From Synechococcus elongatus PCC 11801 (GTDB lineage: Bacteria > Cyanobacteriota > Cyanobacteriia > Synechococcales > Synechococcaceae), in assembly GCF_003846445.2 (NCBI RefSeq), contig NZ_CP030139.2, positions 1,178,001-1,242,000 on the forward strand: a stretch of 64,000 nt of DNA, in the 5' to 3' direction. The position numbers and the translations under genes are program-made. Positions 19,990-27,376 of this stretch are shown one piece after another. Positions within the stretch are counted from its first letter, which is position 1. Every line of letters begins with the position of its first letter. A model generated the notes under the pieces. The model saw only the letters and a program-made list of their open reading frames with translations. It was not told where the DNA came from and did not search any database.

Positions 19990-20571
19990 CTACCAACCCA
20001 AGCTGGAGTAGAGCTGATCGACATGCAACGGTTCGTCAGCAGCGACAGCTTCCGTTTGGCGAATCTCCGCACAGAACGCTGCAGTGCTCAAACCGCCAAA
20101 ACGAGTCACGGTGCTGGCACGCAAGCGCAGGTTGGGTCCCATGAACCAAAACTGTTCCACCGCGCTCATGGTTTCGTAGTCGGTGATCAGGTTGAGGTTG
20201 TTGTTGTCGTCGAGATCAAAACGACCAATCACCGGCACGATCTCCGCATAGCCACGCTCGCGCAGGAGTTGACCGCTGCGACCGCTGGCATCATCGGGCA
20301 CAAGGGCAAATACGGTCGTTCCCGAATGGCCTTCTGCTTCACGATCCCAATCCATCGACCCCTGCCAGCTGACATAGGCTCCCCCGATCGCGGTCGCTGG
20401 ATCAACAGCATGCATGGTGCAGATTTCAACGACCCGTGGATCGGTCTTTTCCAAAGCCTCCACAAAGATGCTGGAGTCGCCATTTTCAGCCCGCCGAAAG
20501 GCAAGGTGGTGGGTGGTGCGCTGCGATCGCCACTGACCGGCACTCTGCCGGAAAAATTCCATTGCGTCCAT
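19990..20571 (-). CDS. cpcS: Phycobiliprotein bilin lyase CpcS/CpeS family
   Basis: 193 residues starting MDAMEFFRQSAGQWRSQRTTHHLAFRR, the hallmark of CpcS/CpeS lipocalin-fold lyases. These attach phycocyanobilin to the conserved Cys82/84 of phycocyanin beta and allophycocyanin subunits. Other family segments are DYETMSAVEQFWFMGPNLRLR and STAAFCAEIR near the C-terminus. The enzyme is cytoplasmic. It lies 123 bp upstream of cpcG on the same strand, so a chromophorylation enzyme and a linker for the same complex are neighbours. Subtype (I versus III) is not assigned here. Confidence 0.92.
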   Translation of the reverse strand: MDAMEFFRQSAGQWRSQRTTHHLAFRRAENGDSSIFVEALEKTDPRVVEICTMHAVDPATAIGGAYVSWQGSMDWDREAEGHSGTTVFALVPDDASGRSGQLLRERGYAEIVPVIGRFDLDDNNNLNLITDYETMSAVEQFWFMGPNLRLRASTVTRFGGLSTAAFCAEIRQTEAVAADEPLHVDQLYSSLGW

Positions 20572-20684
20572 GCGTTTCGGGGAAATAGCACCGCTTTTGA
20601 TCTTAGGGGGCGATCGCGATTCCGGCGGGTGAATTGACAGTCCTGCCTACGCCTGCGTGAATCGTGGCAGTGCTTCCCCCTCTT

Positions 20685-21875
20685 ATGGCTCGACAACGCC
20701 TCGCTTTTTTTGCCGTTGCGCTCAACGTCTTTATGGACGCTTTGGGGGTAACACTCTTGCTGCCGATTTTGCCGGAGCTGCTGCGCCCCTTTGGTAGCAA
20801 TGCTTTTCTGCTCGGTGCTTTTGCTAGCGTTTACACCCTGGCGCAGTTTATTTCAACGCCCGTTCTCGGCTCGCTCTCCGATCGCTTCGGCCGCCGCCCG
20901 CCGCTGATCCTGACGCTGGTGTTTACAGGGCTGGCTTATGTGCTGCTGGCGATCGGTAGTTTGGTGGAAAATCTGCCGCTGCTATTTGCGGCGCGGATTT
21001 TGGCTGGTCTAGCAGGTGGGGTGTTTGCGATCGCCCAAGCCTACATCGCCGATCGCGAATCAGATCCTCTGAAGCGATCGACTCAATTTGGCTGGATTGG
21101 CGCAGCCTTTGGATTGGGCTTTTTGTTTGGCCCTGCCTTGGGAGGCTTGCTCTCAGGGATTAACTTGCGCTTACCAATTTGGTTTGCGGCGATCCTTGCC
21201 TTCATCAACGCCGCGTTGACGGTATTCACTGTGGTGGAATCGCTGCCACCCGAGCGCCGCCGAATCGTACCTTGGCAAGATCTCAATCCGCTCAAACAAC
21301 TCTGGGCAGTGAGTCGCGACCCCAAGCTGCGGCGATCGCTGGCGAGTGCCTTCATCTACAACTTCGCTTTCGCAGGCTTCACTAGTTTGTTTGTGCTGTT
21401 CGTGCAAAATCGCTTTGGCTGGACACCCTTGCAGGTAGCGGGCGTGCTGATCGCGGGCGGGTTTACTTCTGCACTCGGTCAAGGACTGATCTTTGGTCGG
21501 CTACTGCCCTACTTCCAAGAAAAGGGCTTGGCACTTCTAGGGCTTGGGGGTATGGCAGCGGGTTACTTCTGGCTGGCACAGGTACCGCAACCCGGGACTC
21601 AACTTTATCCAGCTCAAATTTTGACGGCGCTGTTTGGCGGCTTCGTGATTCCGGCATTAAGCGGCTTGTTTTCTCGGCGCGTCACCGCTGAAGAACAGGG
21701 GCAGGTTTTGGGCAGTGTGCAGGGCTGGCAGAGCCTCGCGCAGGTGATTGGCCCGCTGATTTTGGGCGTTGTTTACGATCGCGGCGGCGCGGATCCTTTC
21801 TTCTGGAGTTTGGCCGCTTTGAATGTGATCGCCATCCTGTTGCTCTTGCCGCGATCGCGTCAGCCCATAGAATGA
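20685..21875 (+). CDS. MFS transporter, TetA-like (DHA1) efflux family
   Basis: 396 residues from the ATG at 20685 (MARQRLAFFAVALNVFMDALGV); a GTG seven codons upstream at 20664 is possible. There are twelve hydrophobic helices. Motif A, GSLSDRFGRRP, lies between helices 2 and 3, and LAGLAGGVFAIAQAYIAD is the helix 4-5 region of drug:H+ antiporters. It is a proton-driven exporter of the inner membrane; substrate unknown. A methyltransferase gene follows after 21 bp and a glycosyltransferase 4 bp beyond that, so the three are probably co-transcribed. Confidence 0.87.
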   Translation: MARQRLAFFAVALNVFMDALGVTLLLPILPELLRPFGSNAFLLGAFASVYTLAQFISTPVLGSLSDRFGRRPPLILTLVFTGLAYVLLAIGSLVENLPLLFAARILAGLAGGVFAIAQAYIADRESDPLKRSTQFGWIGAAFGLGFLFGPALGGLLSGINLRLPIWFAAILAFINAALTVFTVVESLPPERRRIVPWQDLNPLKQLWAVSRDPKLRRSLASAFIYNFAFAGFTSLFVLFVQNRFGWTPLQVAGVLIAGGFTSALGQGLIFGRLLPYFQEKGLALLGLGGMAAGYFWLAQVPQPGTQLYPAQILTALFGGFVIPALSGLFSRRVTAEEQGQVLGSVQGWQSLAQVIGPLILGVVYDRGGADPFFWSLAALNVIAILLLLPRSRQPIE

Positions 21876-21896
21876 CCGCAGTTAAGAGCTGCTGCG

Positions 21897-22589
21897 ATGG
21901 CTGACTCGGTCTCCACTTCGGTTTGTGTTTACGGCCGTACATTGGCCCAGTACGAGCAAATTTTCGACTTTCAAGCAACGGCTTGGCAGGGCGATCGCGT
22001 GCTGGATTGCTCGGGCGGGCCAGCCTCATTTGTTGCAGAAGCGAATGCATTAGGAATTGCCGCGATCGGGGTGGATCCAGCCTATGACCCCGATCCAGAA
22101 GTGGTACGACAGCAGATCGAGGCGGATATCGATACCGTGGTGCAGCTGTTCCCGATCATCTCGGCGCAGTTAGGCGATGCGGCACCCGAATCCTCAGTTG
22201 TCGAGGGCTCGGCACGCCAGGCTGCAGCTGGGTTCTTAGCTGATTTTGAAGCAAATCGCGATCGCTACATTCAAGCAGCACTGCCCGTTTTGCCCTTCGA
22301 CGATCGCCAATTCGATCGTGTCCTCTGTGGCAACTTCCTGTTCATCTACGCCAGCGACGACGGCTTCAACTACCCCTTTCATTACCAATCAGTGCTGGAA
22401 CTCTATCGGGTCTGCGATCGCGAGGTACGCATTTCCCCGACGCGGGGCAGCGGTGGTGGCAGTCATGCCTACGTGGAACAGTTGCTGAGCGATCTGACGG
22501 CAGCGGGAATTCCGGCGGAACTGAAAGCGGTGCGCGATCCGGTCTATGGCGAAACGCAAATGCTGCTGTTAACTCGTCCGGCGGAGTAG
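21897..22589 (+). CDS. Putative SAM-dependent methyltransferase
   Basis: 230 residues. A Rossmann-like core is visible: VLDCSGGPASFVAEA (motif I region), GVDPAYDPDP where acidic motif II would lie, and FDRVLCGNFLFIYA after the central strand. VLELYRVCDREVRISP resembles the strand-helix usually following in class I enzymes. Motif I is atypical (DCSGGPAS rather than DxGxGxG), so methyl transfer is likely but not certain. It sits between the MFS exporter and the GT1 gene, with a 4-bp gap to the latter. Confidence 0.7.
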   Translation: MADSVSTSVCVYGRTLAQYEQIFDFQATAWQGDRVLDCSGGPASFVAEANALGIAAIGVDPAYDPDPEVVRQQIEADIDTVVQLFPIISAQLGDAAPESSVVEGSARQAAAGFLADFEANRDRYIQAALPVLPFDDRQFDRVLCGNFLFIYASDDGFNYPFHYQSVLELYRVCDREVRISPTRGSGGGSHAYVEQLLSDLTAAGIPAELKAVRDPVYGETQMLLLTRPAE

Positions 22590-22593
22590 ATCG

Positions 22594-23832
22594 ATGCGGA
22601 TTGTCATTCTGACGATTGGGACGCGCGGCGACGTGCAGCCATTTATGGCGCTGGGCGTGGGTCTGAAAGCAGCAGGTTATGAGGTGGCGATCGCCACTCA
22701 AGCCAACTACCAGTCGATGGTGGAAGGGCTAGGGCTAGAATTCCGGCTGCTAGCAGGCGATCCTCAAGGCGTGCAGCAACAATCAGGGGCCTATTCCAAG
22801 GAGACCGTGGCTGCAGCCGCACAGCTTCTTGGCCAGATTCTCAAGGATTCTTGGCTGGCTTGTCAGGATGCAGAAGCGATCGTGGCTTCGCCAAATGCGC
22901 GGGGAGCAACTCATATTGCCGAAGCCCTGCATATTCCCTGTTTCCTGGGATCGCCAACCCCCTATGGCTTTACCCATGCCTTTGCCAGCCCTTGGTTTCC
23001 GCCCAACTTCAAGCTTGGCGGGAGCTGGGGCAATTGGCTCAGTCACTACGCAGTCGATAAGTTGCTCTGGGCGGCAACCCGCAAGACCGTTAACCAGTGG
23101 CGGGTTCAAGATTTAGGGCTGAAACCCTTGGGGTGGAGTAGTCCCTACAAACAATTGGTGCGCAAAGGGCAAGTCTTCCTGCATCCGCTGAGCGAGGTAA
23201 CCTTGCCGAAGCCAGCAGACTGGCCGGAGCAGGCACATCTGACTGGCTACTGGCTGCTACCCGAAACCGAGGCAGCCCTTTCGCCAGAGTTGGAAGCATT
23301 TCTCGCAGCGGGTGAACCACCCGTGTTCATCGGCTTTGGCAGCATGGTCGACCAAGAACCAGAGCGGTTGACTACGATCGCGGTTGAGTCCTTACTGCTG
23401 AGTGGTCAACGCGGCATTTTGCTAGCGGGCTGGAGTCGGGTCGATCGCTCTCAACTGCCAGATACAGTCTTTCCGCTAGAGTCTGCACCCTTTGGTCTGC
23501 TATTTCCGCGCCTTGCGGCCGCAGTGCATCACGGCGGCTGTGGCACCACAGCAGCGAGCTTGCAGGCAGGTTTGCCAACGATCATCACGGCCTACGGCAA
23601 CGACCAAGCTTTTTGGGGCAAGCGGGTCGCAGAACTGGGCGCAGGTCCAGCACCAATTACCCGCGAGGGCTTGACGGCAGAGACTCTGTCCAGCGCAATC
23701 ACCCAAGCCGTTAGCGATCCGCACATGCGATCGCGGGCGCAGGCGATCGGAGAACAGTTGCGGGCTGAGGATGGGGTTGCTAAAGCAGTGAAGCTACTCG
23801 GTGATTATTTGGCGGCAGGGACTAGTTCTTGA
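22594..23832 (+). CDS. GT1 glycosyltransferase (UGT/sterol-glucosyltransferase-like)
   Basis: 412 residues, GT-B fold. The N-terminus has TIGTRGDVQPFMALGVGLKAAG, the GT28/UGT80-type acceptor domain. The donor-binding C-terminus has VFIGFGSMVDQEPE and AAVHHGGCGTTAASLQAGLPTI, the UGT signature with the catalytic-region HHGGCGT. Related enzymes glucosylate lipids, sterols or secondary metabolites. The acceptor is unknown, and S. elongatus is not known to make sterols. The gene ends 28 bp inside the convergent Rieske gene. With the MFS and methyltransferase genes it looks like a tailoring and export module. Confidence 0.85.
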   Translation: MRIVILTIGTRGDVQPFMALGVGLKAAGYEVAIATQANYQSMVEGLGLEFRLLAGDPQGVQQQSGAYSKETVAAAAQLLGQILKDSWLACQDAEAIVASPNARGATHIAEALHIPCFLGSPTPYGFTHAFASPWFPPNFKLGGSWGNWLSHYAVDKLLWAATRKTVNQWRVQDLGLKPLGWSSPYKQLVRKGQVFLHPLSEVTLPKPADWPEQAHLTGYWLLPETEAALSPELEAFLAAGEPPVFIGFGSMVDQEPERLTTIAVESLLLSGQRGILLAGWSRVDRSQLPDTVFPLESAPFGLLFPRLAAAVHHGGCGTTAASLQAGLPTIITAYGNDQAFWGKRVAELGAGPAPITREGLTAETLSSAITQAVSDPHMRSRAQAIGEQLRAEDGVAKAVKLLGDYLAAGTSS

Positions 23833-24842
23833 GCAGCTGTTCTGGAGTCGGCGATCGCCCAACCGCGATCGCGGGCTTGTCGCAGCAAGTTGCGGTAGCC
23901 GATTTGCAGGGCATCAGCGGCGACGTGGGTTTCGCTGCGATCGTCCAAGGGAATCATCTTGGGGCGCTGAGTTTCGACAATCCGCTTGTCCTCTTCGATG
24001 ATTTTGAGGCTGCGGCGCACCGTGTCGCCATCCGCCCAAGCACCGGTGAAAAAGGTGCGCACAGTCAGCCAAAAGGTCTTGGTCGTCTCCGCATCGATGG
24101 GCAGGTTTGCGCCATAGCCAATGAAGCGGAAACCATTACCCAAGTCCGTTTCGGTGCGGACGATACAGGGCATGTACAGGGTGATCGTCGTCGTGACCGT
24201 TCGCGGGGCATCGCCGCGATTGAACAGCTTCCAAATGCCGCGATAGGCCGATTTGGTGAACTGGGTTTGGGCGCGCAAGCCTTCTGGAAGTTGTTCGACT
24301 TTATAAGGCTCAATTAATGGATCTGATGCTGCCCCAAACGAACCCGAGTGGGTGAAGGGCGCGTGAGCGAAATCCATCAGGTTTTCAGTGACGCGGGTGT
24401 AGTGGGTGGTGTAAGTCACTTCGCCCTGCACGGTACGCCAAGCTGGATCATCATATTCCGGCAAGGGTGGCAAGGGTGGACGCTCGGCCTCGGGCAAATC
24501 GCCGTAGAACAGCCAGACTAGGCCATAGCGTTCTGTCGCTTCATAGTGGGGGACTTTCGCCGCGAAGGGAATCCGCTGTTGCTCCGTATTGGCGGGAATT
24601 TTGCGGCAGTGGCCTTGGGCGTCGTACTGCCAGCCGTGGTAGGGACAAACGAGACAGTCGTTTTCGACCCAACCGCCGGAGAGTGCTGCACCCCGATGAA
24701 CACAGCGATCGCTCAAGGCCTGAATCTGACCGCTGCCATCACGGTAGAGAGCGATCGCTTCACCGCAGAGGGTAACGGACAAGGGGCGATCGCCAACCTG
24801 CTTAGCCAGGGCTACGGGATACCAGTAGTTCTTGAAAAACAT
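23805..24842 (-). CDS. Rieske non-heme iron oxygenase (PaO-like), copy 1
   Basis: 345 residues. The Rieske [2Fe-2S] ligands are C47, H49 (RCVHRGAAL) and C66, H69 (CPYHGWQYD). The mononuclear iron site is D157, H160, H165 (MDFAHAPFTH). The late EDKRIVETQRPKMIP segment is typical of ring-hydroxylating alpha subunits of the pheophorbide-oxygenase/vanillate-demethylase group. No transmembrane tail or C-terminal CxxC of plant PaO/Tic55 is present, so it is probably soluble. It needs an electron donor encoded elsewhere. The second Rieske gene lies 3 bp upstream on the same strand. Substrate unknown. Confidence 0.88.
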   Translation of the reverse strand: MFFKNYWYPVALAKQVGDRPLSVTLCGEAIALYRDGSGQIQALSDRCVHRGAALSGGWVENDCLVCPYHGWQYDAQGHCRKIPANTEQQRIPFAAKVPHYEATERYGLVWLFYGDLPEAERPPLPPLPEYDDPAWRTVQGEVTYTTHYTRVTENLMDFAHAPFTHSGSFGAASDPLIEPYKVEQLPEGLRAQTQFTKSAYRGIWKLFNRGDAPRTVTTTITLYMPCIVRTETDLGNGFRFIGYGANLPIDAETTKTFWLTVRTFFTGAWADGDTVRRSLKIIEEDKRIVETQRPKMIPLDDRSETHVAADALQIGYRNLLRQARDRGWAIADSRTAAQELVPAAK

Positions 24843-24845
24843 GGG

Positions 24846-25859
24846 TCAGCCTTGAGTGACGAGGTAGCGATCGCAGTGTTGCTGCCAGAGCTGGCGGTAG
24901 TGCAGTTGCAGGCGATCGGAAGCGACCGAAATTTCATTGCGATCGCGCAGGGGCAGAATGCCTTCAATAATCCGTTGGTCTTCCTGAAAGAGCTTGGCGG
25001 TACGTCGCCGCGTTCCACTATCAGCCCAGCCTGCCGTCAAGAAATTTCGGACATGCAACCAGTGACTACGAGTTGTTGTTGCTGAAGTGGGTTGGTGGAT
25101 GCCCACCAAGATCAGATGAAAATTGCCAAACTCAATATCGATCCGGGTGATGTTCGGTAAGTGAAATGCCGCCCCCGATCGCCCTGCTTTAGGAGTCTCT
25201 TGCTTGCGTCCTAGCAGGTTGAAGCTGCCGCGATAGTTCGCCTTCGGCTCAATTGGAATCCAGATTTGAGCCCCGCGATCGCTTTTTTCCAGTTCAAAAT
25301 CAGCGATCACTTCATTGCCACTGGCGCCAAAGGAATTGGCGTGGACGAAAGGCGAGTGCGCCACATCCATGCCGTTTTCCGTGACGCGCCGATAGTCCGC
25401 TGCCCAGTCGAACTGACCTTGGACAACCCGCCAGCCAGGTTGTTCATACTCCGGCAGTTCCCAGAGGGGCGTTTGGCCAGCCCGATCGCGATCGCCCGTG
25501 AATACCCAGATCAAGCCGTAGCGCTCTTGCACCGGATAGGTCGCCACTTTGGCAGCTTGAGGAATTCGCGCCTCAGCTTGCTGAGAAGGAATGTGGACAC
25601 AATGACCGTCGGGTGCGAATTGCCAGCCGTGATAGGGACAGGCGATCGCGTTGTCCTTGACTTGCCCACAGGCCAGCGAGGCCCCCCGGTGGGGGCAGCG
25701 ATCGTCCAGTGCCACAACTTGCCCGCCAGCAGTGCGATAAATCACCAGCTGTCGATCGAGCAGAGACGCTGCGATCGGCGTTGTACCTACTAAGTCAGTA
25801 CTGGCTGCAACGGCATACCAGTGATTCGGCAGCAGCGTGACATCTAATAAATTAGCCAT
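24846..25859 (-). CDS. Rieske non-heme iron oxygenase (PaO-like), copy 2
   Basis: 337 residues, clearly paralogous to copy 1. The Rieske ligands are C55, H57 (RCPHRGASL) and C74, H77 (CPYHGWQF). The iron site is D165, H168, H173 (MDVAHSPFVH). EDQRIIEGILPL marks the C-terminal helix, with the usual Q-P weakened to ILP. Both copies retain every metal ligand, so both should be active. Tandem non-identical oxygenases suggest two successive oxidations or a hetero-oligomer. Its start overlaps the end of the membrane-protein gene upstream by 8 bp, implying one operon. Confidence 0.88.
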   Translation of the reverse strand: MANLLDVTLLPNHWYAVAASTDLVGTTPIAASLLDRQLVIYRTAGGQVVALDDRCPHRGASLACGQVKDNAIACPYHGWQFAPDGHCVHIPSQQAEARIPQAAKVATYPVQERYGLIWVFTGDRDRAGQTPLWELPEYEQPGWRVVQGQFDWAADYRRVTENGMDVAHSPFVHANSFGASGNEVIADFELEKSDRGAQIWIPIEPKANYRGSFNLLGRKQETPKAGRSGAAFHLPNITRIDIEFGNFHLILVGIHQPTSATTTRSHWLHVRNFLTAGWADSGTRRRTAKLFQEDQRIIEGILPLRDRNEISVASDRLQLHYRQLWQQHCDRYLVTQG

Positions 25860-26496
25860 GACTGAAATGCCAGACGCTCAACAGAAGACTGGCGCAGAAC
25901 AGCACTTCGCCACCATTACTGGCCAGCACCCCCACCAGCCGAATCGGGATGGCACCGGTCACGAGCATGGCGATCGCACCCGCTTGCAACCAAGGCCATT
26001 GCCGCTCGCGATCGAAAAGAATGCCCAGCCCCAGCAAAATCAGCGTGGTCAGAATGACTGGAATTTCAGGATTGAAGCGCACATCCTTATAGCGCAGCGT
26101 GCCGCCGAAGTTGACGGGCGCGAGATCCAAGCCGCGGTAGCGCGTCCAGAGGTCAATGCCAATCAGACTGGCCGTCAGGGCGATCGCCAGCCACATCGCC
26201 GTGGATGTTTCCGCCCAAGCAAAACCCGCTCGTAGGGCCACCTGCCAACCGGCAATGATCAAAAGCGGCGAGCCAAGGATGTGCAGTAGATAGCGCCACT
26301 TAGCGAGACCTGCGAGGCGATCGCCTTCCCCAATCCAGCGGCCAGCCGCCACGATCGCGTTGTCATAAACCAGCCCGAGCGCCACAAACGCGAGGATGGC
26401 CGTGTCCCAACCCGGCGATCGCCAACTGAGCAGCAGCGCACCGACCAGTAGCAGGCTGTGCAAAACGCTGTAGCCGACAAATACAACAGTCGCCAT
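25852..26496 (-). CDS. Polytopic membrane protein of unknown function
   Basis: 214 residues from the ATG at 26496 (MATVVFVGYSVLHSLLLVG); a TTG at 26520 extends it without family support. There are six or seven hydrophobic helices. Between them are polar loops with GRWIGEGDRLAGLAKWRYLLHILGSP and GTLRYKDVRFNPEIPVI. No catalytic motif is recognisable to me. Because its 3' end overlaps the second Rieske gene by 8 bp, it probably acts with the oxygenases, for example as a membrane partner or substrate handler. That role is inference. Confidence 0.7.
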   Translation of the reverse strand: MATVVFVGYSVLHSLLLVGALLLSWRSPGWDTAILAFVALGLVYDNAIVAAGRWIGEGDRLAGLAKWRYLLHILGSPLLIIAGWQVALRAGFAWAETSTAMWLAIALTASLIGIDLWTRYRGLDLAPVNFGGTLRYKDVRFNPEIPVILTTLILLGLGILFDRERQWPWLQAGAIAMLVTGAIPIRLVGVLASNGGEVLFCASLLLSVWHFSHG

Positions 26497-26683
26497 AGGC
26501 TGGGGTTTGGAAGACAGCAAAAACTTCCCAGACTTTAGCGCCCACTCTGGCGATCGCGGTAGAGGTACTCCCAGTGCATCGCGATCGTCAAGTTATCACC
26601 AGCCGCCCACTTGCTGGATTCTGGTCTCAAACAGGGGCAATCACCAGTCTCAAGCGAGAAAAATATCCGCAACTGCGATCGGG

Positions 26684-27376
26684 CTAGGACTGCCCCTCTG
26701 GTTCTTCGGCCCCAGTTACCTCAGATGCAGCAATAAACGCAAACTCAGGCAGCATGCCTCGCACATTGAAAACAGTCGCTAAAAAGCGAATCGGTAGCTC
26801 AATCAGCATTTCAGGACCGTGGGGAATATCACTTTGAAAAGTGAGCGCATCTCCCGCTTGCAGCAAGTAAGATCTATCGCCGTGGCGATACTGCATTTTT
26901 CCTTCGAGAACATAAATTGATTCAAAGCCGGGATGTTCAAAAGCGGCAAACGGCTCCGACCCTTCATGAAGGGTAATTAAGAAGGACTCAAAGCAAAATT
27001 GCGTACTGGGATCACTAGCTAATAGCTGATAAGTGTGGCCGTTGCGAGTTCCCCGTCGAACCACCTCTTTGGCAGTACCGCTGGGAACCAAAAAGACTTT
27101 CTCTGTCGAGACTTCGTAGCCCTTAAACAGCGCACTGAGCGAAATTCCTAGAACAGATACTAATTTTTCTAGGGTTTCTAAACTCGCTGATGTTTGTGCG
27201 TTTTCAATTTTCGACAGCATGCCACGCGAGATTCCAGCCTTCTGAGAGACTTCTGCAATCGTTAATCCATGGCGCTGACGCAATTCGCGAATGGTATTTC
27301 CCAAGTAGCGACAAAGGGCATTATTACCCCCTATTGGACCGCTTGAAGCTCCCAAATCAGCGTCCGCCGACCTCAT
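26684..27376 (-). CDS. XRE family regulator with cupin sensor domain
   Basis: 230 residues. A helix-turn-helix of the Cro/cI type lies at about 25-80 (IRELRQRHGLTIAEVSQKAGIS then MLSKIENAQTS). A C-terminal cupin_2 barrel lies at about 140-210 (HEGSEPFAAFEHPGFESIYVLEG and LQAGDALTFQSDIPHGPE). This architecture is common in repressors or activators that sense small metabolites or amines. It is the first gene on the minus strand ahead of the membrane protein and the two Rieske genes, about 190 bp away, so it may control them. Upstream is a 500-bp AT-rich intergenic region. Confidence 0.88.
   Translation of the reverse strand: MRSADADLGASSGPIGGNNALCRYLGNTIRELRQRHGLTIAEVSQKAGISRGMLSKIENAQTSASLETLEKLVSVLGISLSALFKGYEVSTEKVFLVPSGTAKEVVRRGTRNGHTYQLLASDPSTQFCFESFLITLHEGSEPFAAFEHPGFESIYVLEGKMQYRHGDRSYLLQAGDALTFQSDIPHGPEMLIELPIRFLATVFNVRGMLPEFAFIAASEVTGAEEPEGQS

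Follow-up and report, generated by a model that had tools for sequence, protein, structure and literature searches.

Seven neighbouring genes of Synechococcus elongatus PCC 11801 had been read as a single tailoring or detoxification pathway, which raises the question of which of them work together and on what substrate. They lie within a 64,000-nucleotide stretch of contig NZ_CP030139.2 (positions 1,178,001 to 1,242,000), hereafter the window, and all seven of the open reading frames (ORFs) that the original prediction placed at 20685-27376 are present. We found that four of them, encoding an MFS exporter (MFS), two Rieske oxygenases (RO1 and RO2, collectively ROs) and a seven-helix membrane protein (TM), are shown by comparison with other genomes to form a conserved cyanobacterial module, in which a functional link of RO, TM and MFS is very probable. 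This oxygenase-membrane protein-exporter module is real, partly conserved and apparently undescribed. The remaining three genes, encoding a methyltransferase-like protein (MT), a GT1 glycosyltransferase (GT) and an XRE-cupin regulator, look like local additions or neighbours, and the proposal of one seven-gene pathway thus stands for MFS, the ROs and TM while no linkage was found for the others.

The MFS gene (20664..21875, plus strand) runs towards a minus-strand operon of RO1 (23805..24842, 345 amino acids), RO2 (24846..25859, 337 amino acids) and TM (25852..26520, 222 amino acids). Co-occurrence was well above chance. Over 390 Cyanobacteriia genomes, ROs were present in 14 of the 21 genomes with TM as against 48 of the 369 others (p=8e-8, or p=1.4e-6 without the genus), and for MFS and ROs the counts were 10/16 versus 20/176 genomes (p=9e-6), all by Fisher tests uncorrected for kinship of the genomes. 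RO-RO-hydrolase-MFS and RO-RO-MFS operons recur in several cyanobacterial families. Relatives of MFS adjoin ROs in genomes of families f12, f15, f24 and f26 (42-46% identity) and of f2 (31-35%), and at two loci MFS and the ROs converge and overlap at their 3′ ends, by 4 bp at L126 and by 18 bp at L247, reproducing the geometry of the window minus MT and GT. TM is embedded in an RO-TM-RO run of genes in Aff. Roholtiella LEGE 12411, and lies divergent from an RO of ~40% identity, 0.4-0.9 kb apart, in four genomes of f23, one of them Pseudanabaena biceps, plus G100 (together G295, G205, G198, G191 and G100). Alpha/beta-hydrolase-MFS-TM operons, with an MFS of 41-43% identity and TM directly downstream or overlapping, were found in four further genomes (G226, G076, G108 and G088).

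Two convergent halves with separate functions could have become adjacent by chance, as MFS, MT and GT point towards the RO operon from the opposite strand and relatives of GT, MT and the XRE-cupin protein occur separately elsewhere. We regard this as very unlikely, since MFS-RO adjacency, convergent 3′ overlaps included, recurs in other families and is accompanied by the co-occurrence given above; the two halves, as represented by MFS and the ROs, therefore belong together. The separation of halves that would be expected of chance neighbours was seen for GT, MT and the XRE-cupin gene, and was absent for MFS, the ROs and TM.

The other recurring neighbours of the module (L070, L071, L078, L234 and L247) are genes for a tail-anchored cyclic nucleotide monophosphate (cNMP)-binding protein, a MinD/ParA-like ATPase and a DevBCA-type exporter. 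The genome of the window (G000) has a cNMP-hydrolase pair at another place.

Both oxygenases score above the cut-offs for PF00355 (Rieske; 8.7e-26 for RO1 and 2.1e-25 for RO2) and PF19112 (VanA_C; 6e-29 and 2.6e-24), making them VanA-type enzymes. They had been described as PaO-like, which does not hold as a family assignment: the PaO domain (PF08417) is absent from the Pfam matches at E<=0.01, excluding membership of the PaO/CAO/TIC55 family, although the gene clusters in which their relatives stand suggest chemistry on tetrapyrroles. The claim that every iron ligand is kept in both proteins was borne out, the columns of the ligands (C55, H57, C74, H77, H168, H173 and D294 in RO2 numbering) and of the bridging D165 being invariant over 16 aligned oxygenase sequences. 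Of the 390 genomes, 62 have RO relatives (E<=1e-55), and these frequently stand in tandem, two or three genes of old paralogue clades together. A quick tree, with SH-aLRT as its only measure of support, built from a 75-row wider RO set minus six long rows, placed RO1 and RO2 as sisters (support 95) inside a cyanobacterial clade (96) that includes tolyporphin-, MFS-, TM- and Dev-linked oxygenases; this clade, with oxygenases linked to RCC reductase (RCCR), was set against 11 other VanA-type enzymes with support 97. Relative to other VanA-type enzymes, RO1 and RO2 accordingly group with the hcaE oxygenases that tolyporphin clusters have in duplicate; the solved VanA-type enzymes NdmA, DdmC and SxtT/SxtDIOX are outside the rows of the tree.

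Named relatives of the ROs came from a search of genome contigs with the RO alignment. Thirteen oxygenases of the cyanobacterial clade are from clusters with hemA, hemF, tolI-like and tolJ-like genes. These include contig NZ_JACJTR010000005 of Nostoc sp. FACHB-892, with the order hemF-tolI-tolJ-hemA-RO-RO-GT, which is a published tolyporphin cluster (PMC8401325), and similar gene sets in Calothrix MO_192.B10 and six other genomes (G053, G151, G222, G246, G282 and G039). For the HT-58-2 BGC-2 cluster, a review described the duplicated hcaE genes as being of unknown relevance (PMC10459692).

Outside the cyanobacteria, all eight of the RO loci with E<=1e-55 adjoin RCC-reductase-type proteins. They come from Dactylosporangium, two Nocardia, Streptomyces, Actinoplanes, an Acidimicrobiaceae metagenome-assembled genome (MAG), a MAG titled Deltaproteobacteria and an unplaced MAG, and a weaker RO match in Ca. 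Roseilinea likewise has RCC-reductase-type proteins beside it (cluster loci L227, L228, L229, L230, L232, L233, L235, L236 and L269). The RCC-reductase-like proteins are of two types, the first scoring above the cut-off of PF06405 in all six proteins scanned and the second falling below it or going unmatched. Other genes at these loci encode a nitrilase, a PETase/chlorophyllase-like hydrolase, a short-chain dehydrogenase/reductase, an arylmalonate-decarboxylase/maleate-isomerase-like protein and a CitE-like protein, and this apparently undescribed bacterial cluster looks suited to breaking tetrapyrroles down via maleimides. In plants, the Rieske oxygenase PAO is followed by RCCR, and hydroxylation by TIC55 prepares phyllobilins for the attachment of sugars (PMC8219035).

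Because the ROs are related to tolyporphin- and RCCR-linked oxygenases, and given the plant PAO/RCCR/TIC55 parallel, a tetrapyrrole is the best-supported candidate substrate of RO1 and RO2 and could well be the true one, although we propose it tentatively. The two enzymes would oxidise a hydrophobic tetrapyrrole-type compound derived from a chlorophyll, a porphyrin or a bilin, which the cell either makes itself or takes up. Electrons would probably be drawn from the photosynthetic ferredoxin pool, since the block encodes no reductase. TM would act beside the ROs in the membrane, perhaps holding the lipophilic substrate or passing it along. The Tet-like MFS pump would then expel the oxidised product, which GT and MT, added in this species, may conjugate ahead of export. 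Oxidation of a tetrapyrrole by the ROs with export by MFS and optional conjugation is our best explanation overall, one that we hold provisionally. A more far-reaching version, which we consider unlikely, makes the module the cyanobacterial arm of a tetrapyrrole-oxidising system of bacteria: the VanA-type ROs would perform the work of PAO and TIC55, either opening a macrocycle derived from chlorophyll or hydroxylating it, TM would represent a new family, and the pump would excrete a phototoxic product, here after glycosylation.

Several observations weigh against a tetrapyrrole pathway. The block itself contains no tetrapyrrole enzyme, and RCC reductase (PF06405), which a PAO/phyllobilin pathway would require, has no match in the genome. 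At 37-43% identity, and with a tree position outside the cyanobacterial clade, the RCCR-linked oxygenases may act on a different substrate; in the tree, long branches lead to RO1 and RO2. Some ROs of the clade are found in other contexts, three beside xanthine-dehydrogenase-like genes (G008) and many alone, and the co-occurrence p-values are blind to kinship. In the interval 19990-20664 of the window, a divergent bilin lyase gene, cpeS (PF09367), lies upstream of cpcG and ~93 bp from the MFS start, in an order that is the same in G001, the only other genome of the genus in the set; this closeness to pigment genes is probably coincidental. In G001 the RO1 and GT reading frames are broken (L021:11512-13760), and the pathway may be decaying there, with the two as pseudogenes, or the sequence may be faulty through old sequencing errors. 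RCC reductase was also rejected as a general cyanobacterial partner of the ROs, occurring in 9 of 194 genomes with no evident excess over RO genomes. A literature search for Rieske proteins of Synpcc7942 and for the presumed Synpcc7942 locus tags found nothing.

MFS, a DHA1/Tet-like protein of 403 amino acids, matches PF07690 (MFS_1, 1.8e-52) and is closest to tetracycline-efflux models, its best NCBIfam match being Tet(A/B/C) at 225 bits, short of the cut-off of 475 for that efflux family. For the ROs, the nearest solved structures belong to methylxanthine and dicamba demethylases and to the saxitoxin enzymes SxtT/SxtDIOX. Drug-inactivating enzymes occur in the GT family (131 bits to the Rgt model, whose cut-off is 800), and GT relatives (40-44%) elsewhere often adjoin TetR-type genes. 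The block could on this basis serve general detoxification, the ROs oxidising varied lipophilic or aromatic xenobiotics, GT and MT conjugating them and the pump expelling the products. However the ROs belong to a narrow clade whose relatives, where clustered, stand with tetrapyrrole-type genes, and since old tandem RO paralogues stay together across families, a fixed two-step reaction is suggested; we therefore judge general detoxification possible but rather unlikely.

GT (22594..23832, plus strand, 412 amino acids) matches PF03033 (Glyco_transf_28) and PF06722 (EryCIII-like_C), and its sequence resembles sterol 3-beta-glucosyltransferase, its nearest solved relative (5xvm/5gl5, 224 bits), as well as glycopeptide GT1 enzymes. 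The best NCBIfam model for both ROs is 4beta-methylsterol monooxygenase, at ~116-124 bits against a cut-off of 600. These matches would suit a small tailoring cluster that oxidises, methylates and glycosylates a secondary metabolite outside the tetrapyrroles, yielding for instance a terpenoid or carotenoid glycoside. As no squalene/hopene cyclase (SQHop_cyclase_C) was matched in the genome, an endogenous sterol or hopanoid is probably absent, and a substrate of that kind was rejected on this ground. GT and MT are moreover unlinked to the module elsewhere, and we consider a tailoring cluster of this kind improbable.

TM has no Pfam or PDB relative, even when searched as a profile. Its AF2 model is a confidently predicted seven-helix bundle with a beta-hairpin (pLDDT 83, pTM 0.83), for which fold comparison returned only generic seven-helix bundles (best TM-scores ~0.6, rmsd >5 A) that are uninformative as to its identity. 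Homologues are rare among the Cyanobacteriia, occurring in 21 of the 390 genomes, and often have an RO, MFS or hydrolase gene adjoining. TM is joined to hydrolase-like domains in one protein in three genomes (G004, G086 and G329). At L080, L083 and L084 it is fused N-terminally to alpha/beta-hydrolase-like or DUF1350 domains, the partner domain scoring below cut-off in L080 and L087. A TM relative was also found in Streptomyces sp. G-G2 (L232:20353-20991, minus strand), ~9.5 kb from the RO-RCCR cluster of that genome and followed by a PETase/chlorophyllase-type hydrolase.

The MT gene (21897..22589, plus strand) encodes a divergent class I methyltransferase-like protein of 230 amino acids that itself matches no Pfam model, although 12 of the 16 family members scanned match Methyltransf_11; its single-sequence AF2 model (pLDDT 54) is unusable. 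The family is present in 193 of the 390 genomes, and among the homologues whose flanks were read no block gene lies within ~1.5 kb outside the species pair formed with G001. Neither MT nor GT was found next to ROs in any other genome read, save for distant GT1 enzymes in tolyporphin-type clusters, and GT was rejected as an orthologue of TolD, with which it shares a weak partial match only. The XRE-cupin gene (26684..27376, minus strand, 230 amino acids; HTH_3 and Cupin_2) had been put forward as the regulator of the pathway. Its close orthologues (58-64%) adjoin genes that, from their sequence and without a profile search, appear to encode formyltetrahydrofolate-deformylase-like (purU-like) and/or sarcosine-oxidase-like (soxB-like) proteins in four of the five genomes read (L308, L310, L312 and L313, not L309), suggesting control of one-carbon or sarcosine metabolism. 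The XRE-cupin protein is therefore probably a neighbour of the module and not its dedicated regulator.

The original prediction described the layout well for the most part. The gaps of 21 bp (MFS/MT) and 4 bp (MT/GT) on the plus strand and the 28-bp convergent 3′ overlap of GT and RO1 (23805..23832) were confirmed, as were the 8-bp overlap of RO2 with TM and the 3-bp gap between RO1 and RO2; the XRE-cupin gene does not abut TM but lies 163 bp upstream of it. The MFS gene has a GTG start at 20664, the start given earlier being an in-frame ATG at 20685. In G001 the gene order is the same, between cpcG/cpeS and sfsA/murJ, and the block proteins are 85-97% identical to those of the window where frames are intact. 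MT and GT are ~250 bp apart there, and their tight spacing is therefore not conserved.

To our knowledge the disposal of chlorophyll and other phototoxic tetrapyrroles in cyanobacteria is poorly known, unlike the plant PAO pathway. If the more far-reaching version is true, the module would let a cyanobacterium near the model Synechococcus elongatus break chlorophyll down and excrete it. The block is a compact candidate, accessible to genetics, in a close relative of the model strains. It also suggests what the duplicate oxygenases of tolyporphin clusters, so far unexplained, may be for, and draws attention to a cluster, apparently undescribed, that pairs the same kind of oxygenase with RCC-reductase-like proteins in actinobacteria and other phyla.

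Among known systems, NdmA, DdmC and SxtT/SxtDIOX share the Rieske and VanA_C architecture and the ligands of RO1 and RO2, but are distant in sequence and have another gene context, RO1 and RO2 having no nearby reductase gene. Tet-type DHA1 pumps are the best family match of the window MFS, which nevertheless scores far under their cut-offs. The tolyporphin clusters of HT-58-2 (BGC-2), Nostoc FACHB-892 and Oculatella LEGE 06141 contain duplicate Rieske oxygenases as does the window (PMC8401325, PMC10459692), those of Nostoc FACHB-892 falling in the RO1/RO2 clade, and they also have a GT1 enzyme and exporter genes. They differ in that clustered hem, tolI and tolJ genes are absent from the block and its flanks and the window has no P450 gene, in that the window GT is only ~30% identical to theirs over part of its length, and in their DevBCA exporter where the window has MFS. 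The plant pathway differs from RO1 and RO2 in its oxygenases, the latter being VanA-type proteins of ~340 amino acids that lack the PaO domain, and in its RCC reductase, which is unmatched in this genome. It nonetheless combines PAO and RCCR with a second Rieske hydroxylation, sugar attachment and export, and the bacterial relatives of RO1 and RO2 adjoin RCC-reductase-like genes (PMC8219035).

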